NCBI RefSeq assembly: GCF_000376425.1
Contig: NZ_AQWL01000008.1
Coordinates: 91,014-155,013, forward strand
From: Thiobacillus denitrificans DSM 12475
GTDB taxonomy: Bacteria; Pseudomonadota; Gammaproteobacteria; Burkholderiales; Thiobacillaceae
Length of the DNA stretch: 64,000 nucleotides
Direction: 5' to 3'
Below, piece by piece: positions 38,908 through 61,935 of this stretch; position 1 is the first letter of the stretch; each line of letters begins with the position of its first letter. The translations under genes and the position numbers were made by a program. The notes below the pieces were generated by a model. That model saw only the letters and a list, made by a program, of their open reading frames with translations. It did not search any database and was not told where the DNA came from.

Positions 38908-41049
38908 TCAGCTGCGTCCCACCTCGATCACGTTCTGCACATGCTGCAGGCGCGCCAGCAGGCGCGACAGCTGCTGCAGCTCCTTGACCCGCACGGTGAG
39001 CTGCATGTGCGCAAATTCGCCACGGCTCTCGGTATTGACACGCAGCACGTCGAGCCGGTCCTTGGCGATGACGTCGGAAATATCGCGCAACAGGCCCTGT
39101 CGGTCGAAGGCCTTGAGGCGAATATCCACTTCGAACGCGGCACCTGAGTCGAGCACCCATTCGGCAGGCAGCATGCGCGCAGGGTTGGCGCGCTTGAGCG
39201 CGGCGCAGTCGGCGCGGTGCACCGTAAGGCCGCGCCCGACCGTAGTGTAGGCGGCAATGGTGTCGGGCGGCCGCGGTTTGCAGCAGCGTGCCAGCGTCAA
39301 CGGCACGTCGCCCAGCCCCGGAATGGTAACCGGGTTGCCTGATTTGGCGCGAGCCCGGGGCTTGCTGGTGGGGGCCAGCGCAGCCATGGCTTTGCCGGAT
39401 TCCGGCAGGGCATTGACCAGGTCGCGTTGGCCGACGTCGCCGCGTCCGAGCGCGGCAAGGAACTCTTCGACCTTGCCGAACTTGAGGCGCTGGGCGAGCT
39501 TTTCCTGATTCGCATCCACCACGCCCATGCGCTTGAGTTCCTTTTCCAGCAGGGTGCGGCCGAGGCTGACCTGTTCGCCGACGTCGCGCTGGCGGAACCA
39601 CGCGCGCACCTTGGCGCGCGCGCGATGGGTGGCCAGATAGCCGAGCGCGGGATTCAGCCAGTCGCGGCTCGGCTCGCCCTCCTTGGCGGCGATGATCTCG
39701 ACCCGCTGGCCATTCTCCAGCGCGGTACTCAACGGCACCATCGCCCCGTTGATCTTGGCGCCGCGGCAGCGGTGCCCCAGATCCGTATGCAGCGCGTAGG
39801 CGAAATCCACCGGCGTGGCGCCGCGATCGAGCGCCACCACCCGCCCCTGCGGAGTCAGTACGTAGACCTGGTCATGAAACAGTTCGGTCTTGAACTGTTC
39901 GGTGAATTCGCTGCTGTCGGCAACGTCGTCCTTCCATTCCAGGATGCGCCGCAGCCAGGCGATCTTTTCTTCGTACTGCGCATCCTGCCTGCCGCCTTCC
40001 TTGTAGCGCCAGTGCGCGGCAACACCCAGTTCGGCATTGCGGTGCATGTCAAAAGTGCGTATCTGCACTTCGAGTGCGCGATCCTCGGGGCCGATCACCG
40101 CAGTATGCAGCGAACGGTAGTCGTTGCTCTTCGGCTGCGAGATATAGTCGTCGAACTCACCCGGAATCGGCTGCCACAGGTTGTGCACCAGGCCCAGAAC
40201 GGTGTAGCAGTCGATCTCGTGTTTCACCAGCACGCGCACCGCGCGGATGTCGTAGAGCTGCTCGAAGCTCAGCCGCTTGCGCCGCATCTTATTGACGATG
40301 CTGGCGATGTGCTTGGGGCGCCCGCTGATTTCGGCCTCGATGCCGTGCAGTGCAAGCTCGGCCTGCAGACGCTCGATGATGCTCTTGATATAGGCCTCGC
40401 GGTCGGCGCGCTTTTCGTCGAGCTGAACGGCGATGCTTTTGTAGGTATCGGGCTCCAGATAACGGAACGCCCAGTCTTCCATTTCCCACTTGATCTGCCA
40501 TACGCCGAGCCGGTTCGCCAGCGGCGCGAACAGCTCGCGCGCCTGCTGCCCCAGCACTTCGCGCATAACGGCATCCTTGCTGGCGGCGCAACGCAACGCA
40601 TGCGTCCGTTCGGCGAGCTTGACCAGCACGACACGGATATCCGCCACCATCGCCAGCACCATCTGCCGCAACGCTTCCAGCTGGGCATGCGGATCGACGC
40701 GCTTGTCGGTGACGCTGCTGGCCAGCGTCTCGATACGTGCCATCGCCGCCACCCCGCGCGCCAGCCGCGCAGCGGTACCGAACACGGTGTCGAAATCGGG
40801 GGCATCGCCCAGACAGGCATGCAGCAGCGCCGCGGCGACGGCATCCGCGCCCACGCGCAGCTCGGCAACGATCAGCGCCGTGCCCACGCTGTGGGCAAAG
40901 TCCACGCTGCCGCCCAGGCGGTCGTGCGCATAAGCCAGCGCGCGCCAGGGCAGGTCGTTTTCCGCCACCGGCAACACGCGCGCCAGCGCTTGCCGCGCCG
41001 ATTCCAGATCGGTGGCCTCGAAACAGCGGGGGCGGACGGCTTCATTCAT
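38908..41049 (-). CDS. relA: (p)ppGpp synthetase RelA
   Basis: 713 aa from ATG at 41,049, overlapping the comEC stop by eight bases. Domains in order: N-terminal HD-type domain lacking the HDxxED hydrolase motif (ALLHACLGD in that place), synthetase domain (about 230-360; GEFDDYISQPKSNDYRSLHT, ALEVQIRTFDMH), TGS domain (VYVLTPQGRVVALDRGATPV), and a C-terminal ACT domain. It makes (p)ppGpp on stalled ribosomes; without the HD site it should be synthesis-only. The bifunctional SpoT must lie elsewhere. Confidence 0.93.
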   Translation of the reverse strand: MNEAVRPRCFEATDLESARQALARVLPVAENDLPWRALAYAHDRLGGSVDFAHSVGTALIVAELRVGADAVAAALLHACLGDAPDFDTVFGTAARLARGVAAMARIETLASSVTDKRVDPHAQLEALRQMVLAMVADIRVVLVKLAERTHALRCAASKDAVMREVLGQQARELFAPLANRLGVWQIKWEMEDWAFRYLEPDTYKSIAVQLDEKRADREAYIKSIIERLQAELALHGIEAEISGRPKHIASIVNKMRRKRLSFEQLYDIRAVRVLVKHEIDCYTVLGLVHNLWQPIPGEFDDYISQPKSNDYRSLHTAVIGPEDRALEVQIRTFDMHRNAELGVAAHWRYKEGGRQDAQYEEKIAWLRRILEWKDDVADSSEFTEQFKTELFHDQVYVLTPQGRVVALDRGATPVDFAYALHTDLGHRCRGAKINGAMVPLSTALENGQRVEIIAAKEGEPSRDWLNPALGYLATHRARAKVRAWFRQRDVGEQVSLGRTLLEKELKRMGVVDANQEKLAQRLKFGKVEEFLAALGRGDVGQRDLVNALPESGKAMAALAPTSKPRARAKSGNPVTIPGLGDVPLTLARCCKPRPPDTIAAYTTVGRGLTVHRADCAALKRANPARMLPAEWVLDSGAAFEVDIRLKAFDRQGLLRDISDVIAKDRLDVLRVNTESRGEFAHMQLTVRVKELQQLSRLLARLQHVQNVIEVGRS

Positions 41050-42330
41050 GGGGCAGCGGCATGTCATGCCAGTAACGGCGGTGGGACGGACGATATTCTG
41101 AGGCCACCACCCCGGCTTCGCCAAACGTCAGCCGGATAAGGCCACCCGTGTCGCTGCGCAGAATCCGCGCACCCTGCTCACGGAATCGCACCGTCACCTG
41201 TGGATGCGGATGACCGAAGCGGTTACGGTAGCCCACCGTGAATACGCCATAACGCGGCCGCACCTGGTCGACGAATTCCGCCAGCGACGAAGTGCGGCTG
41301 CCGTGATGCCCGGCCACCAGTACCGTGGCCGCGACATCCGCACCCGACTCCAGCAATTCGAGTTCGCCGCGCCGCTCGGCATCGCCGGTAATCAGCAGGC
41401 TGTGACCGCCCCGGCTGATTTTCAGCACGCAGCTGAAATCGTTGTCGCGGCGGGTGGATTCGGCATAGGCCGCGACGGGCGGGTTCAGTATCTCGAAGCG
41501 CACGCCTTCCCATTGCCAGCGCTGCCCCCGAACGCAGCGGCGCGGGGCGGGCGCATTCATCAAAAGCGGGTTGGCGGCGGACAGGCCATGCAGCAGCCAG
41601 TCGGTCGGGACGTCGCGCAGCAGCGACTGCAGGCCGCCGCTGTGATCGCTGTCGTCGTGCGAAACGATCACGCCGGACAACCCGACGACACCGGCTGCCC
41701 GCAGATAGGGGACGATGATGCGTTCGCCCGTGTCGCTGTCGGCAAACGCGGCGCCGGTGTCGTAAAGCAGCGCATGCTGCGCGGTGCGGATCAGGATGGC
41801 GGTGCCTTGCCCGACATCGATGATTTCCGCCTGGAAAGTGTCGGGCGCCACACTGGCGCGCACGGGAAACACCAGCGGTAGCCACAGCAGGCCGCCCAGG
41901 ACCCGTAGCGGAAACCCGCGCGGCAGCAGCAGCCAAACGGTGCCGGCGACTGCCAGCAGCACGGCCCATCCCTCCGGCGCAGGCTGGGCCGCCACTGCCC
42001 ACGGCAGCGTACTGGCCCAGACCAGCCCTTTCCCCAATCCTGCCATCAGCCATGCCGCCGCATGCCATAGCGGCGGCACGATCACGCCAAGCAGCGCCAA
42101 CGGCGTGACCAGCCAGCTGACGAGCGGGATGGCGATGGCGTTGGCGAACGGTGAAACCAGTGACACCTGCTGGAACAGCAGGAACAAGGCAGGCGCCAGC
42201 GCCAGCGTCACCGCCGCCTGCACCGCCACCCAGCCGCGCAGCCTGTCGGGCAGCGCCAGCCGTCCGAACGTCGCCCACAGGATCGCCGCCATGGCGCCGA
42301 ACGACAGCCAGAACCCATTGCTTATGTAGA
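41042..42330 (-). pseudogene. comEC: ComEC/Rec2 DNA uptake channel, 5' part missing
   Basis: The 416 readable residues from 42,292 downward cover the end of the competence membrane domain (about six helices) and the complete C-terminal metallo-beta-lactamase-like domain (DVGQGTAILIRTAQHALLYD, VSHDDSDHSGG, VAGHHGSRTSS). The family block SNGFWLSFGAMAA begins near 42,326 and is preceded at once by AT-rich DNA with an in-frame TGA. Intact ComEC is about 750-800 aa, so the N-terminal half is gone and natural transformation by this gene should be lost. Confidence 0.85.
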
Positions 42331-42810: not shown

Positions 42811-43260
42811 TCAGGCGGGAATACCGTGCACGGCGCGCACGAGAGTGTTCATGACCAACCTTCCCCCGACCTCTGTATCAAGCAGGGAATGAGGCGTCGC
42901 TCCACGCAACACGGTAATTGAAGAATTAAGCCAATGAATCGCCTTACCCATGTCGCCGAAGACTTCCTCTGCCCTGGCTAGAACTCCGGCCACACGGAAC
43001 AACCTTTCGGATTCCTGTTGAGACAGAATCCCCTTACGCCGGCGCTGCGCAAGCATGCGAACACTTATGCCCAGAAGTTGAGCGAGTTCTGCGGTTGTGA
43101 CCTGTAGGTTCGCTCCAAGTGAATCCAGGGCCTGAGTAGGGAAACCTTGGCGAATCTTTGAGACCCATTCCAAAGGGGTGTTCGGATTCACTTGGAGAAT
43201 GTCCGCCCCCCCTAGAAGAGACAAAACCCTGATGGAAGGATTGTTTGGATAATGGCTCAA
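42811..43260 (-). CDS. Xre/MbcA/ParS-type antitoxin (DUF2384)
   Basis: 149 aa. A central HTH (VTTAELAQLLGISVRMLAQR) is followed by RRKGILSQQESERLFRVAGV and the C-terminal toxin-binding region (AIHWLNSSI, PHSLLDTEVGGRLVMNTLVR, GIPA), the layout of Xre/ParS antitoxins that normally precede a RES-domain NAD-degrading toxin. No intact RES gene follows; only a short frame with weak likeness is seen. The start overlaps the stop of the upstream gene (ATGA). Confidence 0.82.
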   Translation of the reverse strand: MSHYPNNPSIRVLSLLGGADILQVNPNTPLEWVSKIRQGFPTQALDSLGANLQVTTAELAQLLGISVRMLAQRRRKGILSQQESERLFRVAGVLARAEEVFGDMGKAIHWLNSSITVLRGATPHSLLDTEVGGRLVMNTLVRAVHGIPA

Positions 43261-43709
43261 CTTGTGGAAAGAGGGAAAAGCATCTGTCTATCATCGAGTT
43301 GATTTTCGTCGGTGATTTCTCTGCTGGTGGAGAACCGCTTACCGTCTGAGGTCACGTAGACATATTCTGTGTAACCGTCTACCTGCCCTTCCCACATTGA
43401 AGTCAGCGGCCGCATGACCCATCTTTCCTCCTTGGTCATATGTCCAGGAAGAACAACCTGAACATCCAGCAGCTCAATTACATTTTCCGCTTCAAGTAGC
43501 CCGACAAATTGATCTGGATGGATCATGGAAATCATGTTTTTCTTGATCACCCCCTTTTCGAATTCTTCCGAATATAAGCAATAAAACCACGGGAGGAACT
43601 CGGTTTGTATGACGTAGCTCCAGCAGATCGAGTCGTCCTTCCCGAATATGGCGGGTATGTCCATTCTGCCGTCTTCCTCGGTAATGAATGTGGTCGTGTG
43701 CAAAGTCAT
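43257..43709 (-). CDS. Hypothetical protein coupled to the antitoxin gene
   Basis: 150 aa, ATG at 43,709, stop overlapping the antitoxin start. Soluble, acidic, with no recognised motif; it contains several Trp/Tyr-rich stretches (WSYVIQTEFLPWFYCLYSEE; GYTEYVYVTSDGKRF). Overlap with the antitoxin implies one transcript. It is not a RES protein. Whether it is the partner of the antitoxin is not known. Confidence 0.55.
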   Translation of the reverse strand: MTLHTTTFITEEDGRMDIPAIFGKDDSICWSYVIQTEFLPWFYCLYSEEFEKGVIKKNMISMIHPDQFVGLLEAENVIELLDVQVVLPGHMTKEERWVMRPLTSMWEGQVDGYTEYVYVTSDGKRFSTSREITDENQLDDRQMLFPLSTS

Positions 43710-44267: not shown

Positions 44268-45057
44268 CTATGAATTCGCCAAACAATTTCGAATAGCCTG
44301 GGAGTACTGCAATACATCCGCTACGCGCAGAAGACTTAGGCCCGGGCCATCTGGGGCTTCCCCTGTGTCCAGGAACAAGTGTGAACGGTACAGTATCGGC
44401 TGTTGAACAATGCAGTGACCAACAATGGTTAGCCCCACTCCGGACTGTAATTCCAGGCCGGGTACTACTTGGAACGGCCCCCAGTCTTCCAATTCCTTGA
44501 CCGGAATCTGATCGAACAACCTACGGCTCCACAAGAATGTCTTACGCTGCAGGCTGCCGATCGCTTCAGGCAATAGGTTGTCGGGAATGAGCGGGATGGG
44601 CTTGTCATACCGGTAGTAGTCACTGCGATCCGCATGAACCATCCAGAAGCCGCGCTCGCCTTCCACTCTCAGTACCACGGGGGCTGCAGCCAAGAGAGGT
44701 GGCAAGGTGGTTTCAGATACTCAACCTGCACTGGCTCAAGGCTGTAGAGCCGCTCCTGGTCGCAATACGCAGGTCGCCAGGCAGGGAATCTGGAGAGTTC
44801 GAATTCGAAAAATTCGGCAGATCGTCCTCGTGGTTTCCCCGTACGAAATGGAACCATGGCTCATGCAGAAGCTTTAACGCATCGAACGAGTCCGGCGATC
44901 AGTCGATCAGATCTCCCGTGCAAAATACCCGGTCGCGCATCGGATCGAAGCCCAGAGCATCGAGTTTGTCGAGAAGCTGCTGCCGCTCGCCGTGGAGATC
45001 TCCTACGACAAAATCGTGGCCGAGATCATTCGCCGGGAAGGACTCGAAAAAGGTCAT
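44268..45057 (-). pseudogene. Serine/threonine metallophosphatase (lambda phosphatase-like), broken
   Basis: Reading the minus strand from 45,057 gives a clear metallophosphoesterase start: DFVVGDLHGERQQLLDKL, then VFCTGDLID followed by a stop codon where family members have Arg in GDLIDRGPDS, then WFHFVRGNHEDDL. The frame shifts near 44,750-44,800, and the C-terminal part (44,268-44,705) reads LWSRRLFDQ, LTIVGHCIVQQP and LFLDTGEAPDGPGLSLL, matching the metal-binding end. All key motifs are present but divided by one nonsense change and at least one frameshift. Confidence 0.75.
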
Positions 45058-45140
45058 ACTCAGTTTGCCCACATCACGGATCAGAACGGATACTCCCGGG
45101 AACGATCGTAAGAAACCATCAGCTCATCGTATGAGAAATC

Positions 45141-46446: not shown

Positions 46447-46536
46447 GTTTTGCTCCTTGGGATTGATTTGATTGGTTCATGCCCGTACGCCCTATAGCGA
46501 CAAAGTCAAAGTGACTTGCAGCTACAAGTATTGGAA

Positions 46537-49500
46537 CTAAAGGAGCTCAATAGTCGCTGTAGGCGAAGTCGCCAAGTAATCGCGAAGCTGGAATCCGAGC
46601 GACGACCCGGCGTCGACAAGCCTGTCGAGTATGTCGAGTGTTGCCCTGCGCAGGTTGACGTCTCGAATCAGGGCCTCTCGGTGTTCATGCACGGCTACGC
46701 GGCAGATAGTCTCCGTGTGCCACAGGCTGTTCCCGTCATCGAGCAAGTCGGCGGGAGCTCTGCCCAGGGCGTCGCGCAACTGAGGTAGCGCCGACGGCAC
46801 CGCGGACACTCTGCCCACGCCCGCCATCAGCTGCAGCAGGTTCTCCAGACCTAATCGGCTGTCGCCAACGACGGTCAGGCAGTTGGCGATGAACTGCGGA
46901 CGGGACCTCAGCAGTTCAAGGTCGGACCAACTCTTGGGCCAGCGTACTGAACACAGCAGAAGCGTCCTGAGCACTTTGTCGAATCGGCTGTAGGACCTTC
47001 GGCTCTTCGTCCGCAGCGAGTCGTCGCCAAAGACCTTAGTCGCGGCGCGGTCCCAGACCCGCCAGAATGCCGTGGCATTTGCGAACTCCTGCTTCATGCA
47101 CTCGCCAAGCGCCGACTCCAGAATCCTTTCGCTGAACTCAGGAGCATTCTCGAGGCAATGGTCAAGCGTCTCGAAGAGGGGGGAGTCATTGCGTTGCTGC
47201 GCTATGAGCTCAGCTGCCAGCAACTCACCCAACTCCCACCGTGCCTCGAAGTCCTCATCGTCAGGGTCGTGCCGCTGCACCCGGGGCCTACCCTCCTGAT
47301 CCGCCATCAGCCGAGCCAGCGTCATGAGCGACTGGACGCGCCAAGTATCGGTCGTCTCGCTTCGCGCAGCATCAAGAGCTATCGTCCACTCCTTGACGGC
47401 GGCCAAGCTCCTTGGTGACGAACGCACGCCAGGCTCCATCTCTTGCAGTGCGTCACTTAGCGCCTTGACAGCAGTAGCTCTAGCTTCATCGACGAGGTCG
47501 CGCGTCCGTCCGCGCGGGCGTTCGATCGTTGCTTCCAGTGCCTCGGCGTACCGCGCAAGACCAGTGGTCAGTACTTCAGCCAAAACAGGCTGCTTTGACC
47601 TGAGCTCGTTGGAGATCGCCTTGGCCGCAACACGGCGCAGCTCCCACGTCGGCTCAGTCACAATGTTGACCAACGCTTTAACCATCTTGGGTAGAGACGG
47701 ATCGACGGTGGCAAGCGAGATGACCGTCCGTGTCCGCAGTTCACCCATCGAAGGGTCCTGGCGCAACCATGCGTCCTTGTCTTCGTGTACTGCGGTGCGT
47801 TCAAGCAAGAGGGCTTGGGCCCATTGAAGTGCCTCCGAAGTGTCAGTGGGCCACATGCCAATCAAGGCGCAAGCAAGCTCGTCTTCCAGTCCAGCGAGCA
47901 TGCCGAGCTCTTGTTTATTAGTCTCGTCGCAGAGGCGAACGAACTCCTCATAGGGATCAGAGGGCGACGAGAAACGTTCCGCAGTTCCCGTCTCGGCTGT
48001 TGAGAACCGTCCCGTGACCGCTGCTGCCCAGGTACGCACGGCAGCGATGCGGTTCATCCGTTGCATCTGAGCCTGGGCTTTGTCGCTGGCTTGCTGCAGT
48101 TCCGGTTCAAGGTTGGCAATCTCGAGTGGAGCCCACTTGCCATCGCCAACGGGCTCTCCGAGCCTTAGGCCACGGGCGTCCATACGCTTGAGCGCCATGC
48201 GCCAGCCGTCTGGCACCTCCTCAGCACCCTTCAACGCTTCCAGGTGGCTGTCCAGAATCCTGTAGATGGCCTCACGGAGGTCTGGACGGTTGAACTGCAG
48301 TTGAAGAACCAGGTCTTCCAAGCGCTGCTGGCGATGCGGCAGCCGATTACTTGCCATTCGCTCCCGCTGCCTGGAAGCATCTAGCCCATCGTGCCCTCCG
48401 TGGATGGCCAGCGCGGTTCCCTCGTGTACGCTGCGAGCAATTTCGTCGGAGAAGAACTGCGGGCACTTGAAGATGGATAGCAGCTTCTCGGTTACGAGCT
48501 CAGGGTGGGCCATCAAGACCCCTGCCACCATTCCCGTTGTTAGGCTCGACTCCCCCAGGTCCAGGATGATCTCAAGCACCTGCGAGATGACGTTGGGCTG
48601 CGCCTTGGCCTCAATCAGGAGGCGCTCTTCCAGCGCCATCAAGGCCGCGTTCAGCACATAGCTGGTGACCGAGTGCCCGCGGTAGGCAGCCCATAACCGA
48701 AAGTCATGGATGTGCAGCCGGCCATTAGGACTTTTCTCTGGCGGCACGATCGATATCTCGTGCGGGCTCGTTGTGGCAAGTGAGGCAGCGGCGTGGTTGC
48801 ATAGGTCGACCACGAAGCGCACGCTCGTCGGCCAAGCATAGAGCAACAGCGAGCGGAACGGGCCCTGCAGGACCGATGGCGGGAAGAACTTGTGAGCTGC
48901 GCGTTTGCTCAGCCCAAGTTCCGCCTCCCACCCGTGCATGCCTAAGTCTCGGCCAACTCTCGGCTTAGGCTCGGTGTAGAGGGCCCAGAATACTTTCCAG
49001 ACGAGGTCTGAGGTGAAGAAGCTCGCCTCGCGGCAGTTTTTTACGTTGACGAGAAACTCAAGGCGCTCTTCCGAATAGACGTCTCGACTGTCGGGGTCGG
49101 CTGCCAGGCGCTCGAGAAGAACCTCAATGAACGCCTTAAACCTAGCCGGGTCAGCGCCAGAGCAGCGACATAGAAGAGCGTAGAAACGCCTGCCGACTGA
49201 CTGCTCGCGGTACCAGCCGTCTTGGTCATGCTGGCAGAAGTGCTCCGCCATGTTGAACACGTCGAGCACTCTCTGGGTAGGGTTTTGCCAGTTGTCATCG
49301 TGAGACGTGGCATCTTCCGCGAACTGGACCACCCAGGAGTTACACTCCGGCGGCATGTTCGGGAAGGTTCTTGCAACCAATCCAACGACTAGGTCCCAAG
49401 CTTTGCCAACCGGCGCAGCCATCCCGAGTCGTAGCACGATCTCTTTGTTTGCAGGGTCGTCCACCAAGCTTGAGTAGTCAATAGACGTTGGCCCTTTGCA

Positions 49501-51600
49501 GGCAACACGCAGCAAGTGGCTTAGGCGCTGCAGGAGGCTGGCGCTGTCGAAGGAGACACTGCTACCAAGCTTTGCGACCAACTCTTCAACCCGCTCTGAG
49601 CGCAGCAGACCAATGGCTACCTCGTCTCGCCATACCTGCGGGATGGTCGAGTTTTGTCTGAGCGCAGCTTCGAGCAGCGCATAGGCATCCCCATCTTCTT
49701 CGGCTGAACGCTGCGCTGTCCATGTGCGCAGTGCCCTGCGCATTCCGGCGTGTGAGCCGAGCTTGCCGAAGAGCGAGCCCCAGTCGCGCTCGGCACCTTG
49801 CACCTCCCGTTCAACCCTGAAGTAGAGCGACCAGTCTTCCAAGACGTCGTGGGCGGGAGCTACCCGGTCCATCGCATCCTTTGCCAGCACCGCGTCTTGC
49901 AGGAGCGAGACAACGGCCTCGGCGTCATTTGGCGCCTCGACAAACTGAGCAAAGCGTTCCGTGCGCGCATAGCAGACCTCGTCGAAAGCTACTCGACGGC
50001 GTGTGGCCAGCCCTGCTGGCAAGCCTTTGCTGGGGGCAACCCGCTCTGTCCACAGGCGCAGCCGCAAGTCGTTGCCGGAAGCCTGAGGTAGAGCTGCTCC
50101 TGCCGCAGTGTAGTTGAAAGCAAGGCGTAGGTAGTAGGGCGCTCGAAGAACTTCTCGCACGCCGCCGTCCTTGGTAGCAATGTCTTCAAGAGTTGTCCCT
50201 GCCACTGCCGTAGATATCTCTGGGTCTGTCAGCAAAGGGACGTCGACGACTTGGTAGGAGAAGTCAGAGAGGAAGAGCGAGTAGAGCGCGTTGAGAGCAT
50301 AGGAGCGGGTCGTGACACAGAGCCTGACCCTCTTGTTCTGACGGACAAGCGCCAGTAGCTCCTCAAGGGCACCCGGGTTCCTTGCTTCGAGCGCCTTTTC
50401 CAGCGAATCGATGACGACAGTCGGTGTGCCACTGCACAAGAGGCTCGCCATGCTGAGCACCGCATCAGGCATGCCGCTGAGTGACTGAACTGCTGCCAAG
50501 CTCGGCTCGTCGAGCTCGTCGGCTCGGAAGAAGAACAGCGGGCCGGACTCGCGAAGCAGTGGCGCGAGCTCCGCGATGACCGCTGACTTACCCGCGCCCG
50601 GGCCGCCTGTGACGATGACGAGCTGCCGCTCATCGAGGCCCGCCAGCACTTGAGCAACACACTGGCCGCGGGGGATGTGTGTGCCATTGGGAAGCTTCGT
50701 CGAGATGAGCGAGAGTTGAAGACTTGCTCGGCCGCTAAAACGCTCGGCGATGTTGGCAAGCCCCCTTTGCCCGGTGAGGCGGCCGACGGCTTCTTGGATG
50801 CCGACCTGCGCGGTCGATCTCCAGGTCTCCCGAGTGACCGTTCCGACCGTGATGCCTTGCTCGAATACATACGAGAACAGGCCGTTCCATACCTGCTCGC
50901 CGGAGTCTCCAGGCTGGCCTGAGTCCAACAGTGCCTGCACGAGACTTAGTTCTTGCGAGGCCTCCGTGCCAAGATCATGTATGTCGACACGCATCCGCCG
51001 CAAGAGCTCGAAGACGAGCTCTTCGTTGTACTTGTCGGCTAGCGTGTTCTTGGATACTTCCTTGAAGGCTTTCAAAGTACGCTTATGCTGGGCGTCAAAG
51101 AGCTTGGACTCAACCTTTTGGATGAAGTCGGGCAAGTTGAGCGAGGAACGCGACAGTTCGCATAGACGCTTGGCCGCCTTATTGGCCGGTGTCGCTGGAG
51201 CCACTGTTGCCAAGACCAATACGTCGCAAGCCCGGTCGAAGGGGCTTCCTTCTACGCCAAGAAAGTCTCTCCAGGCTCCACGCAGTCCATCGACGAACTC
51301 GGTGTTGCTAGGCGTCGCGTCGAGTCCTCGCTTGCACTGGACGAGCTGAAGCCGACAACCCTCGTTGTCGCGCAGCTGACAGTAGATGTCGTCTGTATGA
51401 GCGCCGGTGTAGCGGGCTTCGAAGCGAAGCGTTTCGACTCGAGCGCCGTGCAGGCCGAACGCAGTCGGCCTCCCTGTCAGCATGTTTGCCAGATAAAGTG
51501 TGCCGACCCGCGCCTGGAACACACCGCCCCCGCCGCCAGTGGCAACGGTACTCACGACCTGTGTGCCCTGAAGGGGGGGGCGTTGGGGCTTGTCTTCCAT
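46537..51600 (-). CDS. Giant STAND/AAA ATPase with N-terminal Cap4-like nuclease domain (Avs-like)
   Basis: 1687 aa. Residues about 27-120 resemble the Cap4/DUF4297-type restriction nuclease fold: VFQARVGTLYLANMLTG, an acidic pair in GAHTDDIYCQ (70-71) and LQLVQCKRG with the Q-x-K end (88-90). A P-loop ATPase follows: Walker A VTGGPGAGKSAVI (about 330), Walker B TVVIDSLEKAL (about 391), then CVTTRSYAL. The remaining 1100 residues are helical, repeat-like, without known motif, as in sensor regions of antiviral STAND proteins. Inference: a defence protein that cuts DNA on sensing phage. A 91-base gap precedes the next downstream gene. Confidence 0.7.
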   Translation of the reverse strand: MEDKPQRPPLQGTQVVSTVATGGGGGVFQARVGTLYLANMLTGRPTAFGLHGARVETLRFEARYTGAHTDDIYCQLRDNEGCRLQLVQCKRGLDATPSNTEFVDGLRGAWRDFLGVEGSPFDRACDVLVLATVAPATPANKAAKRLCELSRSSLNLPDFIQKVESKLFDAQHKRTLKAFKEVSKNTLADKYNEELVFELLRRMRVDIHDLGTEASQELSLVQALLDSGQPGDSGEQVWNGLFSYVFEQGITVGTVTRETWRSTAQVGIQEAVGRLTGQRGLANIAERFSGRASLQLSLISTKLPNGTHIPRGQCVAQVLAGLDERQLVIVTGGPGAGKSAVIAELAPLLRESGPLFFFRADELDEPSLAAVQSLSGMPDAVLSMASLLCSGTPTVVIDSLEKALEARNPGALEELLALVRQNKRVRLCVTTRSYALNALYSLFLSDFSYQVVDVPLLTDPEISTAVAGTTLEDIATKDGGVREVLRAPYYLRLAFNYTAAGAALPQASGNDLRLRLWTERVAPSKGLPAGLATRRRVAFDEVCYARTERFAQFVEAPNDAEAVVSLLQDAVLAKDAMDRVAPAHDVLEDWSLYFRVEREVQGAERDWGSLFGKLGSHAGMRRALRTWTAQRSAEEDGDAYALLEAALRQNSTIPQVWRDEVAIGLLRSERVEELVAKLGSSVSFDSASLLQRLSHLLRVACKGPTSIDYSSLVDDPANKEIVLRLGMAAPVGKAWDLVVGLVARTFPNMPPECNSWVVQFAEDATSHDDNWQNPTQRVLDVFNMAEHFCQHDQDGWYREQSVGRRFYALLCRCSGADPARFKAFIEVLLERLAADPDSRDVYSEERLEFLVNVKNCREASFFTSDLVWKVFWALYTEPKPRVGRDLGMHGWEAELGLSKRAAHKFFPPSVLQGPFRSLLLYAWPTSVRFVVDLCNHAAASLATTSPHEISIVPPEKSPNGRLHIHDFRLWAAYRGHSVTSYVLNAALMALEERLLIEAKAQPNVISQVLEIILDLGESSLTTGMVAGVLMAHPELVTEKLLSIFKCPQFFSDEIARSVHEGTALAIHGGHDGLDASRQRERMASNRLPHRQQRLEDLVLQLQFNRPDLREAIYRILDSHLEALKGAEEVPDGWRMALKRMDARGLRLGEPVGDGKWAPLEIANLEPELQQASDKAQAQMQRMNRIAAVRTWAAAVTGRFSTAETGTAERFSSPSDPYEEFVRLCDETNKQELGMLAGLEDELACALIGMWPTDTSEALQWAQALLLERTAVHEDKDAWLRQDPSMGELRTRTVISLATVDPSLPKMVKALVNIVTEPTWELRRVAAKAISNELRSKQPVLAEVLTTGLARYAEALEATIERPRGRTRDLVDEARATAVKALSDALQEMEPGVRSSPRSLAAVKEWTIALDAARSETTDTWRVQSLMTLARLMADQEGRPRVQRHDPDDEDFEARWELGELLAAELIAQQRNDSPLFETLDHCLENAPEFSERILESALGECMKQEFANATAFWRVWDRAATKVFGDDSLRTKSRRSYSRFDKVLRTLLLCSVRWPKSWSDLELLRSRPQFIANCLTVVGDSRLGLENLLQLMAGVGRVSAVPSALPQLRDALGRAPADLLDDGNSLWHTETICRVAVHEHREALIRDVNLRRATLDILDRLVDAGSSLGFQLRDYLATSPTATIELL

Positions 51601-51991
51601 TTTTATCCGAAAATGCTCTCGCCGTTGCTCGGCGTCTCCTGCTGACGCGGCATAAGGGGTTTGTTATAGAGCACCGACTTTATCCTAAACAACGGCAAAT
51701 TGCGGGTGGAAAGCACCGCCGTAAAAAGGAGCGTCGGTTTATTGACGCTATTGATAATGGTCCTCAGATGGGGCCAGTTGAAGCCTAGAGTGAGGGTTTC
51801 CCCAGACGGGCTGCGCTTCGGCCAAAGCGGTCTGTCAAGAGGCAATCCATGAACGACCGCTAAGCCGCGGGAGCGGTCGGTCGTTGAGGCACTACGAACG
51901 CTAGCCCCCCGGCCGGAAGCAGTCCTCCGGGACGGCCGGCTCAAGCCCGCGTGGTCCCTCTCGCCTGGCATCGCCGCTGAATGTGCATGAC
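51601..51991. other. Gap between the two giant ATPase genes
   Basis: 391 bases with no gene. A hairpin-capable element (51,852-51,885; arms AACGACCG/CGGTCGTT or GACCGCT/AGCGGTC) lies here, and a GC-rich stretch (GCGCTTCGGCC) resembles decayed intergenic repeats. Because of this gap the two genes need not share one transcript. Confidence 0.5.
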
Positions 51992-54900
51992 TTAGAGCGA
52001 GTAGCCGTTCTTCGCCGTCTTCAAGAGAGATTGCCCGTAGCTGCTCGGCTGCTTGATCTGCCTGCTTGCGAACACGTTGATGCCCAGGTCCATCTTCCCA
52101 CGAGCAGTGGTGATCTGTTCGAGGCCTACCGGCGTCAGAACGAGGTAGCAACCCTCGCCCCACAGAGATTCCGCATCGATATCAACCGGACCGGCGTCAC
52201 GCCACCAATGGATCTTTGCGACCACAGCTCCGCTCGCGTCGAGGAAGACGCTCGGTTCGTCGTCATGCGCGCGCCAGCGAAGCCTCATCACCCAGTTCGG
52301 GCACAACACGAATGGATAGGCTGCTGCGTCGAAGCCCATGTCCACAGAGCAAACAACCCGCCTTACCAGCGTTGGTGCCAGTTCATTGTCAAGTGCGAGG
52401 TACTGACCTAACCAAACAGCAATTGGCAGCTTGGTATAGCAGTCGTCGAAGTCTTCACCGTCAGTCTGTGCCGAGGGTGCTCTAAAACGGTAGAGGCGGT
52501 GCTCCGATAGGCGCGGCCTAAAAATCTTGAAGAGAGACACCTCGGCCACGACCTGGCCGTCGTGGTGTACCGGAAAAGGCGCAACGTCGTTGTCGACCTC
52601 GTCATCCCACTTCAGCTCTCGCTCGGACCAACCGGCACTTCGGTCCATCAGCGGCATTCGAATCCATTCGGGACGCACTCGCGGAAGCTTCAGCGGCCGA
52701 GGGGGAAGCGGGCAACCCAAACGCTCCAACAGCGTCGGCCTGTCGCGGCCGGTCAGCTTGCCGGCCAGCCGCAGTTCTCCCGCGACGTGGCGAAGGGCGG
52801 CAATGGCAATGTAGGCATGAGGCTTCAGGTAAGTGATCTGCATGTCGAGGACGCGAAGCTGAGCCTCAAGCCTTTTGACGCCAGAGGGCCCGAATGCCTC
52901 AAGTCCCCCCCAATCTTGGATGAACATCGCCGCGCGGCGGCGGACTGTCATCTCGTCAATGCCTGCCACCTTCGCAATGTGCCGTGCCGTCGAGCTCAAC
53001 ATCTGGGTCCAGCCAAGCGGCGACTCGATGCGCATTGCACCAGTTCTCTCGTCCCTGAACGCAGGGTCGCCCTCTGAAGGGTGCTCGAATTCTAGGCTAT
53101 AGAAGAGCGGCAGTGGCGTCGCGTCCAAGGAGACAGCCAGCCCCCACCGATGCGACAAAAGCGCGGCTGACTCTGCCACCGCAATGTCGCGATGGCTGAC
53201 CAACGCAGCGACGGCGGTGCCCAACTCGGGGGCAAGGTCCGCGCTGTCAGCAGCCAGCAGTGTTCCGAGCGCCTGCAAAGGGGCATCGGATTCGCCGGTT
53301 AGAAGTCGCCGCATAAGGGACTTGAACAAAGCTTGACCGTGTTCGGTTTGCCCTGCCAATCGCAGCGTGCAATTACGTGCGTGTCGCTGAACTTCTGCAA
53401 CGGGCAGCCGATAGGCAAAGTGCAGCAACTCTTCCAGAAGATCCGTGTCGCTGAGCGGAAGCTCGCTCGACTGGAAGGGCCGTCCCAGTTGGAACTCGCG
53501 AGTGCAGGCCATCTGCTCCTCAAGCAGCGACCAGATGGCAGGCCAGTCCGGCGTCGCGCTGATTACTGGCAATATCGAATCCAGCTCTGTCAGCAGCGAC
53601 TGGGTGCTCTCCTGGCCCGCCGTCACTGAATCGACGATGTTCTCGAAGGCGGCGGGGGACATGGCTGGTCCCTCCAAAAGCTTCTTCGCCTCAAAGTAGA
53701 GGAACTTGCCGCCACCCATCCACTGGCTCCAGGAACTCCAAGGGTCCTTGCTTGTCTCGTAGCCTTGCATCAGCTTTCTGGCGTACTCGATCTCTCCCGC
53801 CGCAACCAACCGCTTCACCATTAGGAAGCGGCAACGCGCGTTCTCCTGCAAAACCTGCCAGCGCTCAAACATCCTCTGCACCAGAGGAAGCGGAGCTGTC
53901 TCGGCCAGATCTCTGAAACGGTACGGGGCGTTGTAGTTCAGTTCGTCGCCATCCGCTTCAAACGCGCGCTCAAGCTCCTCGAGAGTGACCTCTGAGTCGT
54001 ACTTGCTGGGCGTAGATGAATGCCGCGGTTCCGGCGCTTCTGATGCCCATCGAGCGACAGCGGCGTCGAGCTCGGCGGATGAGAACCCATGTTTTCCAGC
54101 TGCGGCGCGAAGGCGCTTGAGCAGTCCGACCCTCTCGTGTGCTCTGCTGGCTACCTCGATCGCCCCCAATAGCATCAGCACGAGAGGCTCAATCTGGCCG
54201 GGGCCGGCAGCGTCGGCTGCGACGTCGATGAAGTCGCCGACATTGTACGGATCCCGGTAATGCGGTTCCATGTAGAACGGCAGGCATAGCCCGCACCAGA
54301 CTGTCGCGCAAGGCAAGACAAATTCGGGGCTTCGCCGGATCATCCCCGACATGAGTAGGTCGACGCGGTTCGGCCAGCCAATCAATTGCCAAGCCGCCAG
54401 TGTCTCTGACACCTCGAAGCCGAAGCGAGGCCCAACCTGCATCGCTTCCTCAATGAGCGACATCGTCAGGCGATGCGCGGCCGACGACCCTTCCGTTTCG
54501 GTCATGCCGCTGACCTGGTGCATCAAGTTTGAGACCCGCTTGACACGGTTCTCCGGGTCAGCAGTGTTCGTAAGGACCAGAATGTCCCGCCAGATTGCGT
54601 ACTGTGGGTCCTTTTTGGGGGCCAGCGCGTAGCCAAGGCATTGCTCGGGAACTGTCGCCAGCAACTGTTTCGCCCGTTCCACGTCCCCGACCGCAGCCAA
54701 CGCGATGGCCAAATCCGCCAACCCGTCGACCTGCTCGCTCGGCGTGCTCTCTTGAAGCTCCGCCGCGAGGGCGTTTAGCCGGTCGACGGCCCCCACACGG
54801 TCACCGTCAACCCGATACGCATCGACGGCCAATCTGCGTCGCAGGTACGCAGTACCCCCCAGCGTGGATGAGGCGATGGCTGCTTCAACTTTTCGAAGTA

Positions 54901-57900
54901 CGGCGCGGTATTCATCCTCGCCACACTTGGCGCCTAGTGTCAGCAGCGCTTGCGCGAGCACGGGGACCGCTTTGAAGGCCTGCTGGATGCGATATGACTC
55001 GCTGCCGCCTTCTGATGTCAGACGTAGGACGTACCCAAGGGCAATGCGGGCTTCGTCCTGGATGCTGCCAGCCGGCACGGTCGCGTTGTCGGCGCGAGCT
55101 AGAAGCACGCCTATCTTCGAGGCGTGGTGCTGGAACGGATGAAGGAAGGTGTGCTTCGACGGTGTCGCGCTTGGCAGCGGCTTATTGAGCAGCGTGCAAA
55201 GCCTCGCGTGATGCATCACCGCGCCGACCAGATCACCCAGCCCAGCCAGGTCCGTCTCGTCATCGCACGTGGAGATCATCGGTGCGACCAACTTGTCGAA
55301 CAGGGCCTCGGCAAGGTCACAACGGCCAGCTTGGAATGCAATCAATGCCATACGGCGGCGGTAGCCGTTGGGCACGTTTCCGAAGCCAGGAAGGGCGGCG
55401 GCGGCATCAAACAGGGCAAGCGCTCGCGCGACGTCGCCACGCCGACTTGCCACAAGTCCTGAGTGAACCATTACAGACGGCTTGTCTTCATCGGCTACCC
55501 CGAGATCGCTGCAGAGTGCTTGTGGATCAGCGCCAACCTTCTGAAGGAGCATCGCCTCTGCGGCTTCCCTCCTCAAATGCTGGCGCAGCGAGGCGACAGT
55601 TTCTGGATCTAACTTTTCGGGCTGGTGTAGCCCCTCTGCAGCGAGGTGGTCAATCGCTGTCTGGATCTGCTCGCTGTCTCGGAAGTTGACGGCGCGCCTT
55701 GCCCACCTTTCGAATTCCTTGATGTTGTGATTGAAGCCGTGGTTCTGGAACTTGGACGTATGGAGCTGCGCTAGCGGCTCGAGGCTTTCAAACAGCTCCT
55801 TCGCGCGCTCGAAGTCGCCTCGCGCCAACAGAGCGTCGACAACCTCGTAGCCCTGGCTGGGGAAATACTGCACAAAGGAGAGGGCGGCATCAATGTCCCC
55901 GACTGCCAGCATCGCCAGGGGAAGCTGGTTGGCGTACTCAAGGGCAGTTTCGCGCCGCCCCACTTCGTCACGACACAGCAGCAGCCGTGCGAAGGCGGTC
56001 GCGTCGTGCGTTCCACGCACTGCCAGCAGAGCCAGGCGGATATCAGCGTGGACCTCGGCGATAGAACGCCCGTCAGCCAGTTGCTGCCTGAAGCGAGCGG
56101 GCATCGCCAGTGCAAGTGCATCGGCACCGTCGCCGGCACGGGCGCGGTAGCGCAGCTCAAGCCAGTGCTGCGCAGATTCGGGCGGCGCGTTCTTCGCCAA
56201 CTGGGCGAGGTCGCGGTACACGCGCTGCGAGTATTCGGCGTCGACGCTTCCGAGGCGGCTTCGCGGTTGAGCGATGACGAACAGCCTAAAGCTGTTGTGG
56301 AAGACACTCCACCCCTGGGATGACCTGCGGAGCAGGTGCCGTGCAACGATCAAGGCGCGTTCAATCGCGGACTCCTTGACCATCGTGGCCAGCAGCCGCA
56401 GGTCCATGGGTGCCTCAGCCCGAGCGATGAAGCCCAGCACGTCCATGGCATCGACATCGCTTGCGATCTCGCGCCAAGCAGCGGTGTACACAGTCTCAAT
56501 ATCGCCGTCGAACGGCATCCCGCCGCTGAGAAGGTGCTTACGGCCGGCTTCGTCCGCGTGCAACAGCGACTGAATCAAGTAACGCGTTGCCAGCGGGTGG
56601 CCATGCGTGAGATTGCTCAGATCCAATCTCGGAATCACGGCAGGCAGGCCAAGCGCATCCGCCATCCGGGCGACCTCCTCGCGGCCGAGAGGCCCCATGA
56701 GAACCTGTCGCTCGCTCTTCTCCGCTTGCTCTCTTACGGCGGGCTTCAGATTCGCGAGATCCAGCCGCTGCGTGCCGAGCACGAACACAACCCCGTTGGG
56801 GATGGCCGCGGGAAGAGGCAGCTCGCCAAGAAGCGAATTGGTCGGCCGCTCTTCGCGAGGCACATGGTCGAGCCCGTCGACGACGATGATTGTTCGGATC
56901 CCGTCGCGGTCGAAGCGTTCACCAGCCTGCCGCACGAGGACGTCGAACTGTTCGCGGCGCTCATGCAGCGAGTCATCGCGAAGACGAAGTCCAACCAAGC
57001 CGCTGTTGCGCAGCTGCGTGTCGACGTCGGTCAGGAAGTTGTCGGCCTCCCCGCGACCCACGCCTTGAGCGGCGCCCGGCACGTACGCCAAGTAGCGAAC
57101 TAGCCGGACATTTGCTTCAGTGGCCAGCGCAACCTGCAGGAGAGTGGATTTCCCGGAGCCAGGCGGTCCTATGAGTGAGACGTAGCCCTGGTCGGCGGCA
57201 TGCAGCGCGGCCAGCAGCTTGACCTCAGTGTCGCGGTTGCGCTGCACGTAGGCTCCGACCGGGAACCGGTGGATGAGGAGCGTCTTGGCCGGGTCGCGCC
57301 AGCCAAGCTCACGAAGCAGCTCGTCACGCGTCCACCTGTCCTTGTCGCGTGCATCGGCGACCAGCTTGGGCAGCACGCTGGCAATCTCGGATGCCTGTCG
57401 CGCCTGCTCGGCGTTCAGCTTGTGGGATTGGATGAAGTCGGCCGCGGCACCGCACACCACCCGAAGGCAGTGCAAGAACTGTTCGAAGTCGCCGTCGCTC
57501 AGTCCAGTCTCACGACGCAGGTGGTCAACTAGCCGACTCCATTCGGACGTGTACCAATCTTCGAGCGGGCGACTCGGATGCTGCCGGAGCTCTTCTAGAA
57601 AGGCCGCACTGTGGGCAGGCGTGCCACCGCCTGGCCTGTCGGTAACCGAAGGGAAGTCGTTGACGACAAGGCGGATCTCGACACCGCCTCCCGAGTTGTC
57701 ATTGCGCAGGCACTGCCAAGCGTGAACCAGCGGCTTCAAGAGGCCGTTTGCGCCAGTTAACAGCGTCTCAACAGTGAAGGTGCTCGGGAACTTGGACGTC
57801 TTGAACTGGTGGCCGACCACCAATCCATCGAAGCCGAGCACCAAGTCGTCGGCGATGCCCGCGTTGCGATCGGCCACGCCGACCCAAAGCAGCTCGTCGC

Positions 57901-58033
57901 GCTCGAGCGCGGCGTAGATGGCAGCACCCGCCCGCTCATACTGGCCGATATATCCACGGACTGCTCGGCGTTCGCCTTCCGCCGGCACAGTTGCAGGAGC
58001 TGTAGCGGTGGATGGATTCGGTTTCTTGGACAT
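51992..58033 (-). CDS. Giant P-loop ATPase with nuclease-like N-terminus and long repeat sensor
   Basis: About 2013 aa from ATG at 58,033 (MSKKPNPS); the frame is open to 58,129 and the start is uncertain because no candidate has a clear ribosome site. N-terminus: GYIGQYERAGAAIYAAL, then AGIADDLVLG and VVGHQFKTSK, a D-D ... Q-x-K pattern like DUF4297/Cap4 nucleases. ATPase: Walker A LIGPPGSGKSTLLQ (about 288), Walker B TIIVVDGLDHVPRE (about 378). Beyond residue 500 are TPR-like helical repeats and an unassigned C-terminal domain. Precedes the 1687-aa ATPase on the same strand. Confidence 0.7.
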   Translation of the reverse strand: MSKKPNPSTATAPATVPAEGERRAVRGYIGQYERAGAAIYAALERDELLWVGVADRNAGIADDLVLGFDGLVVGHQFKTSKFPSTFTVETLLTGANGLLKPLVHAWQCLRNDNSGGGVEIRLVVNDFPSVTDRPGGGTPAHSAAFLEELRQHPSRPLEDWYTSEWSRLVDHLRRETGLSDGDFEQFLHCLRVVCGAAADFIQSHKLNAEQARQASEIASVLPKLVADARDKDRWTRDELLRELGWRDPAKTLLIHRFPVGAYVQRNRDTEVKLLAALHAADQGYVSLIGPPGSGKSTLLQVALATEANVRLVRYLAYVPGAAQGVGRGEADNFLTDVDTQLRNSGLVGLRLRDDSLHERREQFDVLVRQAGERFDRDGIRTIIVVDGLDHVPREERPTNSLLGELPLPAAIPNGVVFVLGTQRLDLANLKPAVREQAEKSERQVLMGPLGREEVARMADALGLPAVIPRLDLSNLTHGHPLATRYLIQSLLHADEAGRKHLLSGGMPFDGDIETVYTAAWREIASDVDAMDVLGFIARAEAPMDLRLLATMVKESAIERALIVARHLLRRSSQGWSVFHNSFRLFVIAQPRSRLGSVDAEYSQRVYRDLAQLAKNAPPESAQHWLELRYRARAGDGADALALAMPARFRQQLADGRSIAEVHADIRLALLAVRGTHDATAFARLLLCRDEVGRRETALEYANQLPLAMLAVGDIDAALSFVQYFPSQGYEVVDALLARGDFERAKELFESLEPLAQLHTSKFQNHGFNHNIKEFERWARRAVNFRDSEQIQTAIDHLAAEGLHQPEKLDPETVASLRQHLRREAAEAMLLQKVGADPQALCSDLGVADEDKPSVMVHSGLVASRRGDVARALALFDAAAALPGFGNVPNGYRRRMALIAFQAGRCDLAEALFDKLVAPMISTCDDETDLAGLGDLVGAVMHHARLCTLLNKPLPSATPSKHTFLHPFQHHASKIGVLLARADNATVPAGSIQDEARIALGYVLRLTSEGGSESYRIQQAFKAVPVLAQALLTLGAKCGEDEYRAVLRKVEAAIASSTLGGTAYLRRRLAVDAYRVDGDRVGAVDRLNALAAELQESTPSEQVDGLADLAIALAAVGDVERAKQLLATVPEQCLGYALAPKKDPQYAIWRDILVLTNTADPENRVKRVSNLMHQVSGMTETEGSSAAHRLTMSLIEEAMQVGPRFGFEVSETLAAWQLIGWPNRVDLLMSGMIRRSPEFVLPCATVWCGLCLPFYMEPHYRDPYNVGDFIDVAADAAGPGQIEPLVLMLLGAIEVASRAHERVGLLKRLRAAAGKHGFSSAELDAAVARWASEAPEPRHSSTPSKYDSEVTLEELERAFEADGDELNYNAPYRFRDLAETAPLPLVQRMFERWQVLQENARCRFLMVKRLVAAGEIEYARKLMQGYETSKDPWSSWSQWMGGGKFLYFEAKKLLEGPAMSPAAFENIVDSVTAGQESTQSLLTELDSILPVISATPDWPAIWSLLEEQMACTREFQLGRPFQSSELPLSDTDLLEELLHFAYRLPVAEVQRHARNCTLRLAGQTEHGQALFKSLMRRLLTGESDAPLQALGTLLAADSADLAPELGTAVAALVSHRDIAVAESAALLSHRWGLAVSLDATPLPLFYSLEFEHPSEGDPAFRDERTGAMRIESPLGWTQMLSSTARHIAKVAGIDEMTVRRRAAMFIQDWGGLEAFGPSGVKRLEAQLRVLDMQITYLKPHAYIAIAALRHVAGELRLAGKLTGRDRPTLLERLGCPLPPRPLKLPRVRPEWIRMPLMDRSAGWSERELKWDDEVDNDVAPFPVHHDGQVVAEVSLFKIFRPRLSEHRLYRFRAPSAQTDGEDFDDCYTKLPIAVWLGQYLALDNELAPTLVRRVVCSVDMGFDAAAYPFVLCPNWVMRLRWRAHDDEPSVFLDASGAVVAKIHWWRDAGPVDIDAESLWGEGCYLVLTPVGLEQITTARGKMDLGINVFASRQIKQPSSYGQSLLKTAKNGYSL

Positions 58034-58360
58034 TATCGGAGCCATAGAAATGGATTCGGTAGCTGACGCCAACCGGGAGAAAAGAACTGCTTCAGCATCA
58101 CCTGGGGCATCCAGCGCTAGAGGATACATGCTGCTGAGTCATCGAACGCCGTTCTGAAACGAAGTCTGGCCTATGCCGATCGAAGCGGTCATTGGCGAGG
58201 TCGATCGTGAATGACTCAGATCAGCCTTAATCGGACGTCTTGGGTTGCGGCGGTGACCGTCCGCTTTGGCCGACAAGCCGCCTTACACTGCGGGAGTCGA
58301 CCGTGCCTGAGGTGCAGCTAATTAACCGGCGGTTCCGCTACCGCGGTTCTCAATAGAAGC

Positions 58361-61776: not shown

Positions 61777-61935
61777 TGGCGATTAGGGAAGCTCTATAAA
61801 GTCGGTGACCGGGATGTCGGCAAGTCGGCCAAAGCCGACTGTGAGTATCAAGACAAACTCAGTCTGCCGTACTTCGGTTACCAGCCACTCAGCCTGGAAC
61901 AATATCGCGTGCTACCGACCCACAGCAGCCATTGA
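61777..61935 (+). pseudogene. Gene fragment of unknown origin
   Basis: A 52-codon open stretch ends in TGA at 61,933-61,935 and reads like protein (KLYKVGDRDVGKSAKADC, YFGYQPLSLEQYRVLPTH). It has no start codon of its own and begins in the umuC stop region, so it looks like the 3' remnant of a lost gene. Family not recognised. The following 160 bases to the DUF6527 gene hold nothing recognisable. Confidence 0.35.

Follow-up and report, generated by a model that had tools for sequence, protein, structure and literature searches.

Two giant genes lie side by side on the minus strand of the window, the whole stretch of 64,000 nucleotides of Thiobacillus denitrificans DSM 12475 that was analysed. 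Their products, called P1 and P2 here, are probably independent single-gene anti-phage proteins of the Avs type, brought next to each other by chance on a mobile island, and each would sense and cut alone. P1 (46537-51600, 1687 aa) is a STAND ATPase related to Avs4, with an N-terminal domain that resembles Cap4. P2 occupies 51992-58033 (2013 aa) from its likely start, within an ORF that opens upstream at 58129 (51992-58129, 2045 aa). All parts of the two genes named below are on the minus strand. A first-pass annotation of the sequence had described two co-oriented giant genes of 1687 and about 2013-2045 aa. Both ORFs were confirmed with these positions and lengths, and both reading frames are intact. 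For both proteins the evidence supports the Avs-like build that the annotation had proposed: a motif-bearing N-terminus, a STAND ATPase and a long C-terminal part.

According to PMC12931631, Avs proteins have a C-terminal sensor and an N-terminal effector that are connected through a central NTPase. When the terminase, the portal or another phage protein is recognised, the nuclease effectors of Avs1-Avs4 cut the genomes of both phage and host. By analogy, P1 and P2 should each bind a phage protein, form oligomers and cleave DNA. The long C-terminal region would recognise the phage protein, the central STAND ATPase would switch and oligomerise, and the N-terminal Cap4-like PD-(D/E)xK domain would cut DNA, so that the infection or the cell is stopped. 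We infer phage sensing, oligomerisation, nuclease activity and cell death for P1 and P2 on this basis. The kind of machine is already known, and P1 and P2 are variants of it.

P1 and its relation to Avs4

P1 matched Avs4 in PADLOC at 1.6e-95 and the solved Avs4 structure 8dgf at 1.5e-47 by sequence, or 6.8e-69 with the family profile. Against the NCBIfam Avs4 model NF041815 it scored 341 bits, residues 307-1675 aligning with positions 187-1577 of the 1579 in the model, and against an annotated Avs4 (blastp) it aligned in two segments, 309-1193 and 1512-1674, the latter at 3e-7. P1 therefore shares with Avs4 a single-gene layout, a homologous STAND ATPase and a homologous C-terminal sensor, the latter placed from about residue 601 onward (46537-49800, approximate limit). 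The last part of this sensor appears divergent, since the best stretches in PADLOC and PDB end at residues 1194 and 1239, respectively. In contrast to a full-length Avs4, for which the curated cut-off is 1500 bits, P1 stays far below that score with its 341 bits.

The divergence from Avs4 is sharpest at the N-terminus. The best Avs4 alignments begin at residues 307-309 of P1, and at 307-308 in its relatives L009 and L018. They exclude the first ~306 residues, the effector domain (50683-51600), in which the N-terminal nuclease of Avs4 was not found. That nuclease is Mrr-like. About 207 residues precede the matched part in Avs4, versus about 306 unmatched residues in P1, and these look like a Cap4-type nuclease. 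As judged from the alignments, P1 is an Avs4-related protein with a different effector, in which an Avs4 sensor and switch would drive a non-Avs4 nuclease. In the work of Gao from 2022, the phage portal protein is said to be the trigger of Avs4. Because the Avs4-type sensor and ATPase are retained, the portal protein would be the likeliest trigger of P1 also.

Residues 20-590 of P1, that is, the N-terminus plus the ATPase, matched another PADLOC entry, the candidate PDC-M54A (1.1e-14), which was also matched by the three P1 relatives scanned (3/3). The P1 sensor region, in contrast, has no match in it. The letter M in this name may mark a multi-gene candidate, which would leave room for a further partner gene of P1. 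Among nine island proteins scanned with PADLOC there was no further PDC-M54 match, and a literature keyword search for the name PDC-M54A found no paper.

The P-loop ATPase reported in the first-pass annotation is conserved in the P1 family alignment, with Walker A GGPGAGKS (residues 332-339, 50584-50607), which is invariant, and Walker B TVVIDS. The genomes with close P1 relatives (best-segment identity 65-83%) are those of Burkholderia, two Halopseudomonas, a Comamonadaceae MAG, Pseudomonas tremae and Inhella. Another, at 68% identity, lies on the virus contig L018; it emerged when the alignment was used as query, the scan of virus contigs with the P1 protein alone having yielded zero relatives. 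A class-wide survey with the single P1 protein detected its own genome only (1/369), and a phylum-wide profile survey one genome of 398, its own included. The rows compared for the two proteins are not all independent, L008 and L005 being 99.8% identical and L012 97% identical to L011. The match of L007 is confined to P1 residues 2-572. The copy of P1 in the Comamonadaceae MAG (L006, 9980-14434) is without about 213 residues (772-984) in a single open frame; this gap may be genuine or may stem from the assembly.

P2 and its relation to Avs1b

The start of P2 was placed by comparison. Alignments with plasmid relatives begin at ORF residue 51, and translated similarity extends farther upstream in the two closest relatives, from residue 3 in the virus contig L010 (87% identity) and from residue 19 in the genome G736 (89%). 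The L010 ORF begins at the equivalent of M33 (MVKKPKP) and the G736 ORF four residues earlier (MDPKMSKKPNP). From these two ORF starts, the likely start of P2 is at 58033.

The sole named defence protein matched by P2 is Avs1b, and in the ATPase region only (7e-19 in PADLOC; 1.1e-17 over ORF residues 309-791 in NCBIfam). The same match was obtained with 8/8 P2 family members scanned. Walker A GPPGSGKST (57143-57169) and Walker B VDGLDH are conserved in the family alignment, again as first described, and the STAND ATPases of P2 and Avs1b are homologous. In AVAST, according to PMC12799240, the defence protein carries a fused trypsin-like protease and has as its partner a pro-nuclease encoded by a gene of its own. 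P2 differs on each of these points. No protease was matched in it by Pfam or NCBIfam, its N-terminus having a D...DD...QxK pattern instead. No pro-nuclease partner of the metallo-beta-lactamase type was seen among the neighbour genes scanned, a set that included only part of the small ORFs and in which the only Pfam domain of this type was in the comEC half described below; nor did PADLOC match Avs1a or Avs1c among the nine island proteins. The C-terminal half of P2 is also unmatched by Avs1b. P2 is thus Avs1b-like in its ATPase only, as far as homology can be traced, and would join an ATPase of this type to a nuclease-like domain in place of the Avs1b protease.

The C-terminal region of P2, a putative sensor (51992-56353, approximate limit), has a TPR match just above the Pfam cut-off and also matches designed repeat proteins. 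The helical repeats noted in the first-pass annotation are thereby supported for P2, and by the homology with Avs4 for P1.

For P2 the phylum-wide profile survey gave 4/398 genomes, its own included, and the class-wide survey with the single protein again returned its own genome only (1/369). The relatives on Enterobacterales plasmids cover 98% of the length at 54% identity; for those carried by Sphingobium, Vibrio, Nitrosococcus and Rhizobium plasmids, identity is 22-33% in the full-length alignment. In all, the plasmid hosts of the family are Enterobacterales, Vibrio, rhizobia, Sphingobium and Nitrosococcus. The virus-contig scan gave L010 first, and later L028, which is the same contig as L010, as well as L029 and L030, which apparently carry one and the same P2-type protein. 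Additional scans of virus contigs gave no relative. Two of the plasmids, L014 and L015, are sister Vibrio plasmids, and in L015 the annotation divides the copy into two ORFs. The P2 copies in genomes G451 and G532 are fragmented.

The N-terminal domains

The acidic and Q-x-K pattern that the first-pass annotation had noticed in both N-termini, and likened to Cap4/DUF4297 nuclease domains, proved invariant. In P1 the predicted nuclease motif E61...D70 D71...Q88-x-K90 (51331-51420) is invariant in the seven rows of the family alignment, of which two are nearly identical, and again in 7/7 rows once the relative on L018 is included. An Azospirillum relative with 22% identity keeps DD and QxK in register in a four-row alignment. 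In P2 the motif D55...D62 D63...Q76-x-K78 (57800-57871, numbered from MSKK) is invariant in 8/8 rows, at identities down to 26%. It lies in the putative effector domain, about residues 1-260 from MSKK (57254-58033, approximate limit).

Fold modelling of the N-termini, a check named in the first-pass annotation, gave the expected topology in weak models, with mean pLDDT of 48.3 for P1 (7-sequence alignment) and 39.7 for P2 (4-sequence alignment), the motif stretches of both lying in regions below 50. Both low-confidence models have the order helix-strand-strand-strand-helix-strand. The first acidic residue stands at strand 1 or immediately behind it, DD opens strand 2, and QxK comes at or just past the end of strand 3. 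These places are at or next to those expected of a PD-(D/E)xK nuclease. In Foldseek the top rows were LmuA (3.4e-3), Cap4 (8.6e-3) and Avs3 (1.2e-2) for P1, and HerA-DUF4297 (2.0e-2) and Cap4 (2.7e-2) for P2, for which an unrelated protein came at rank 4. No match reached 0.001 for either N-terminus, TM-scores were about 0.1-0.3, and matches from low-confidence models such as these can be meaningless. Cap4, Lamassu LmuA, Avs3 (8dgc) and HerA-DUF4297 are thus the top but weak fold matches. They differ from P1 and P2 in that those nucleases sit on other sensors, and the N-termini have no significant sequence match to them. The Pfam Cap4 family matched none of the seven P1 N-termini, in which DUF790 at 0.14 in one was the only match.

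Conceivably, the motif-bearing domains lack activity or do something else, and the proteins act by another route. The low confidence of the models speaks for this, as does the fact that neither N-terminus significantly resembles a solved nuclease in sequence: profile searches of solved structures with either one gave no match up to E = 5. Against it, the motif residues stay invariant down to 26% identity, and one P2 member of eight matched Pfam Cap4_nuclease (0.003), and one of eight the PADLOC CBASS 'Endonuclease' effector model (5.5e-4). We therefore regard inactive N-termini as improbable, and the models as consistent with Cap4-type nucleases, short of proof. The two N-termini showed no detectable homology to each other in hhalign (probability 0.3%), and for this reason their likeness is limited to the motif and the predicted topology.

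An exact match to one described Avs type, which the first-pass annotation had named as evidence against its proposal, was looked for with PADLOC and NCBIfam and was not seen for either protein. We tentatively suggest, at somewhat under even chances, that P2 is an undescribed Avs type, a stand-alone protein of ~2000 aa that unites an Avs1b-like switch, a nuclease resembling Cap4 and a sensor longer than 1000 residues, and that P1 is an effector-swapped branch of Avs4. A keyword search of the literature, with a main Avs paper outside its coverage, gave no paper evidently on the P1 or P2 family among the matches listed, and an earlier description is possible. If the suggestion is true, one island displays switch, sensor and cutter exchanged independently. 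P1 would be a natural experiment, in which an Avs4 sensor and switch are mounted on another nuclease. With P2 the known sensors would gain a further family, whose phage trigger would be open to direct screening.

Separate occurrence and the island

The first-pass annotation had proposed a two-component system. P1 and P2 are on the same strand, 391 bp apart, and both are nuclease-like ATPases, as a true two-component system would have it, for instance a hetero-oligomer or a sensor with its amplifier. This arrangement was seen in one genome only. The P2 profile detected nothing in the seven records with close P1 relatives (0/7; six genomes and one virus record, the latter possibly a fragment), nor was P2 present in the examined flanks of these relatives. 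Conversely, the P1 profile detected nothing in 11 records with P2 relatives (0/11): three genomes, of which two are drafts, 76-84% complete, one virus record, possibly a fragment as well, and seven plasmid records, for which the search covered the plasmid record alone, without the host chromosome. This count excludes L029 and L030, whose examined stretches show no P1. As a positive control, the same profiles detect both genes in the genome of the window. Homologues that never co-occur, which the first-pass annotation had named as evidence against its proposal, are thus what was found in the records searched, and co-occurrence in unrelated genomes, as expected of a two-component system, failed to appear.

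The DNA of the two genes also ends separately. The P1 block (46486-51686) is 83% identical in DNA to a Burkholderia locus (L004), and the P2 block (51864-58227) is 89% identical to G736 (L027). Either gene brings short flanks of its own, and similarity ends separately inside the spacer, leaving a boundary of 177 bp (51687-51863, no strand assigned) to which no fetched relative has a match. It contains a terminator-like hairpin (51749-51730, minus strand), recognised by consensus match only. The simplest reading of these limits is that P1 and P2 came together as separate units. The spacer had no match in plasmids, RNA folding of the spacer was no better than chance (z -1.29), and no Rfam family reached the gathering score in 42000-64000.

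The absence of either gene beside the other in the relatives examined, the separate block edges and the hairpin between the genes make a two-component system very improbable, and we have dropped this reading. Since each gene is present without the other, two separate alarms are a better description than one two-part machine. The other half of the first-pass proposal, that the two are redundant sensors, fares differently: the two-component reading is contradicted by the same counts, and redundant sensors side by side are possible. Selection would then keep together two sensors with differing triggers and no physical cooperation, a sub-case of independent proteins. The C-terminal parts do come from different families and both genes are intact, but the pairing is limited to one genome, so that selection on the pair looks the same as chance neighbourhood, and we consider it rather unlikely that selection holds the two genes together. 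The preferred reading is therefore that of independent proteins that are neighbours by chance. Neighbouring giant defence genes would need a co-occurrence test before being named a system.

A different pair of neighbours was seen on an Azospirillum oryzae plasmid (L036, 5938-15240), where the gene right after a distant P1 relative encodes a second giant ATPase that is nuclease-like. The latter has no PADLOC match and no significant similarity to P2. Neighbouring giant ATPases thus recur, by their sequences, in Azospirillum, with a different partner, and this counts against the preferred reading.

Both genes lie in a stretch of low G+C (58.5% in 42320-64000, against 64.3% in 1-42000). This stretch starts inside comEC, of which the C-terminal half (41042-42318) breaks off at about 42318. 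The N-terminal half is on contig C11 (10736-11842), where it adjoins a four-gene module of the tyrosine-recombinase type (L034, 4144-10562). Given the split halves of comEC, the low G+C and the recombinase module, the island most likely came from the insertion of a mobile element into this DNA-uptake gene, the middle of the island lying between contigs. The module consists, in order, of a tyrosine recombinase, a 711-aa protein with no integrase match, a 746-aa protein with a sub-cut-off integrase match, and a 308-aa protein with a match to the P-loop family AAA_33. An identity as GInt was dropped, the order being at least as like intA-tfp-intB-srap, the order of SEs. Identity as an SE was also set aside: in the available text of PMC10214605 and PMC5385486, no ATPase is given for the fourth gene, and SEs are reported in Gammaproteobacteria only.

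Relatives of both proteins have defence genes as neighbours. For P1 these are CBASS cyclases with a phospholipase effector (L009), GajA (L007) and an Hhe/PDC-S37 protein (L005). The P2 relative in L010 adjoins a QatC-like protein, and the annotated neighbours of other P2 relatives are a retron, PtuA and AbiV in one setting, Dsr1 in another and AbiE genes in a third. A P2 relative is also carried on a resistance plasmid. On the four IMG/VR virus contigs (L010, L018, L029 and L030), large serine recombinases, mutually related, lie within ~4 kb, which suggests a shared class of carrier element for these P1 and P2 relatives.

Several minor features were noted around the genes. Imperfect 29-nt inverted repeats, 79% complementary, stand on either side of the P2 block, just beyond the edges of the shared DNA (51809-51837 and 58254-58282). 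Their 13-base core has exactly three copies in the 3.6-Mb genome, two of them here, and a copy with one mismatch is found at 61825 (repeat 61818-61842). They are possibly recombination footprints. Upstream of P2 (58361-61775) is a group of the SOS type, with DUF4325 STAS-like, SRAP, SNase, LexA/UmuD-like S24 peptidase and UmuC-like polymerase genes. Toward the contig end (62099-63899), a DUF6527 gene adjoins one for a ThiF (E1-like) protein, in which a JAB match stayed below threshold; together they may form a ubiquitin-like defence operon. On the other side of the pair, at 42811-43709, an Xre/MbcA/ParS antitoxin gene overlaps a 150-aa gene that matched no family significantly and may encode an unrecognised toxin. 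Between these and P1, open frames at 44268-45072 resemble pieces of a metallophosphatase, with its GDLHG motif, and are apparently broken.
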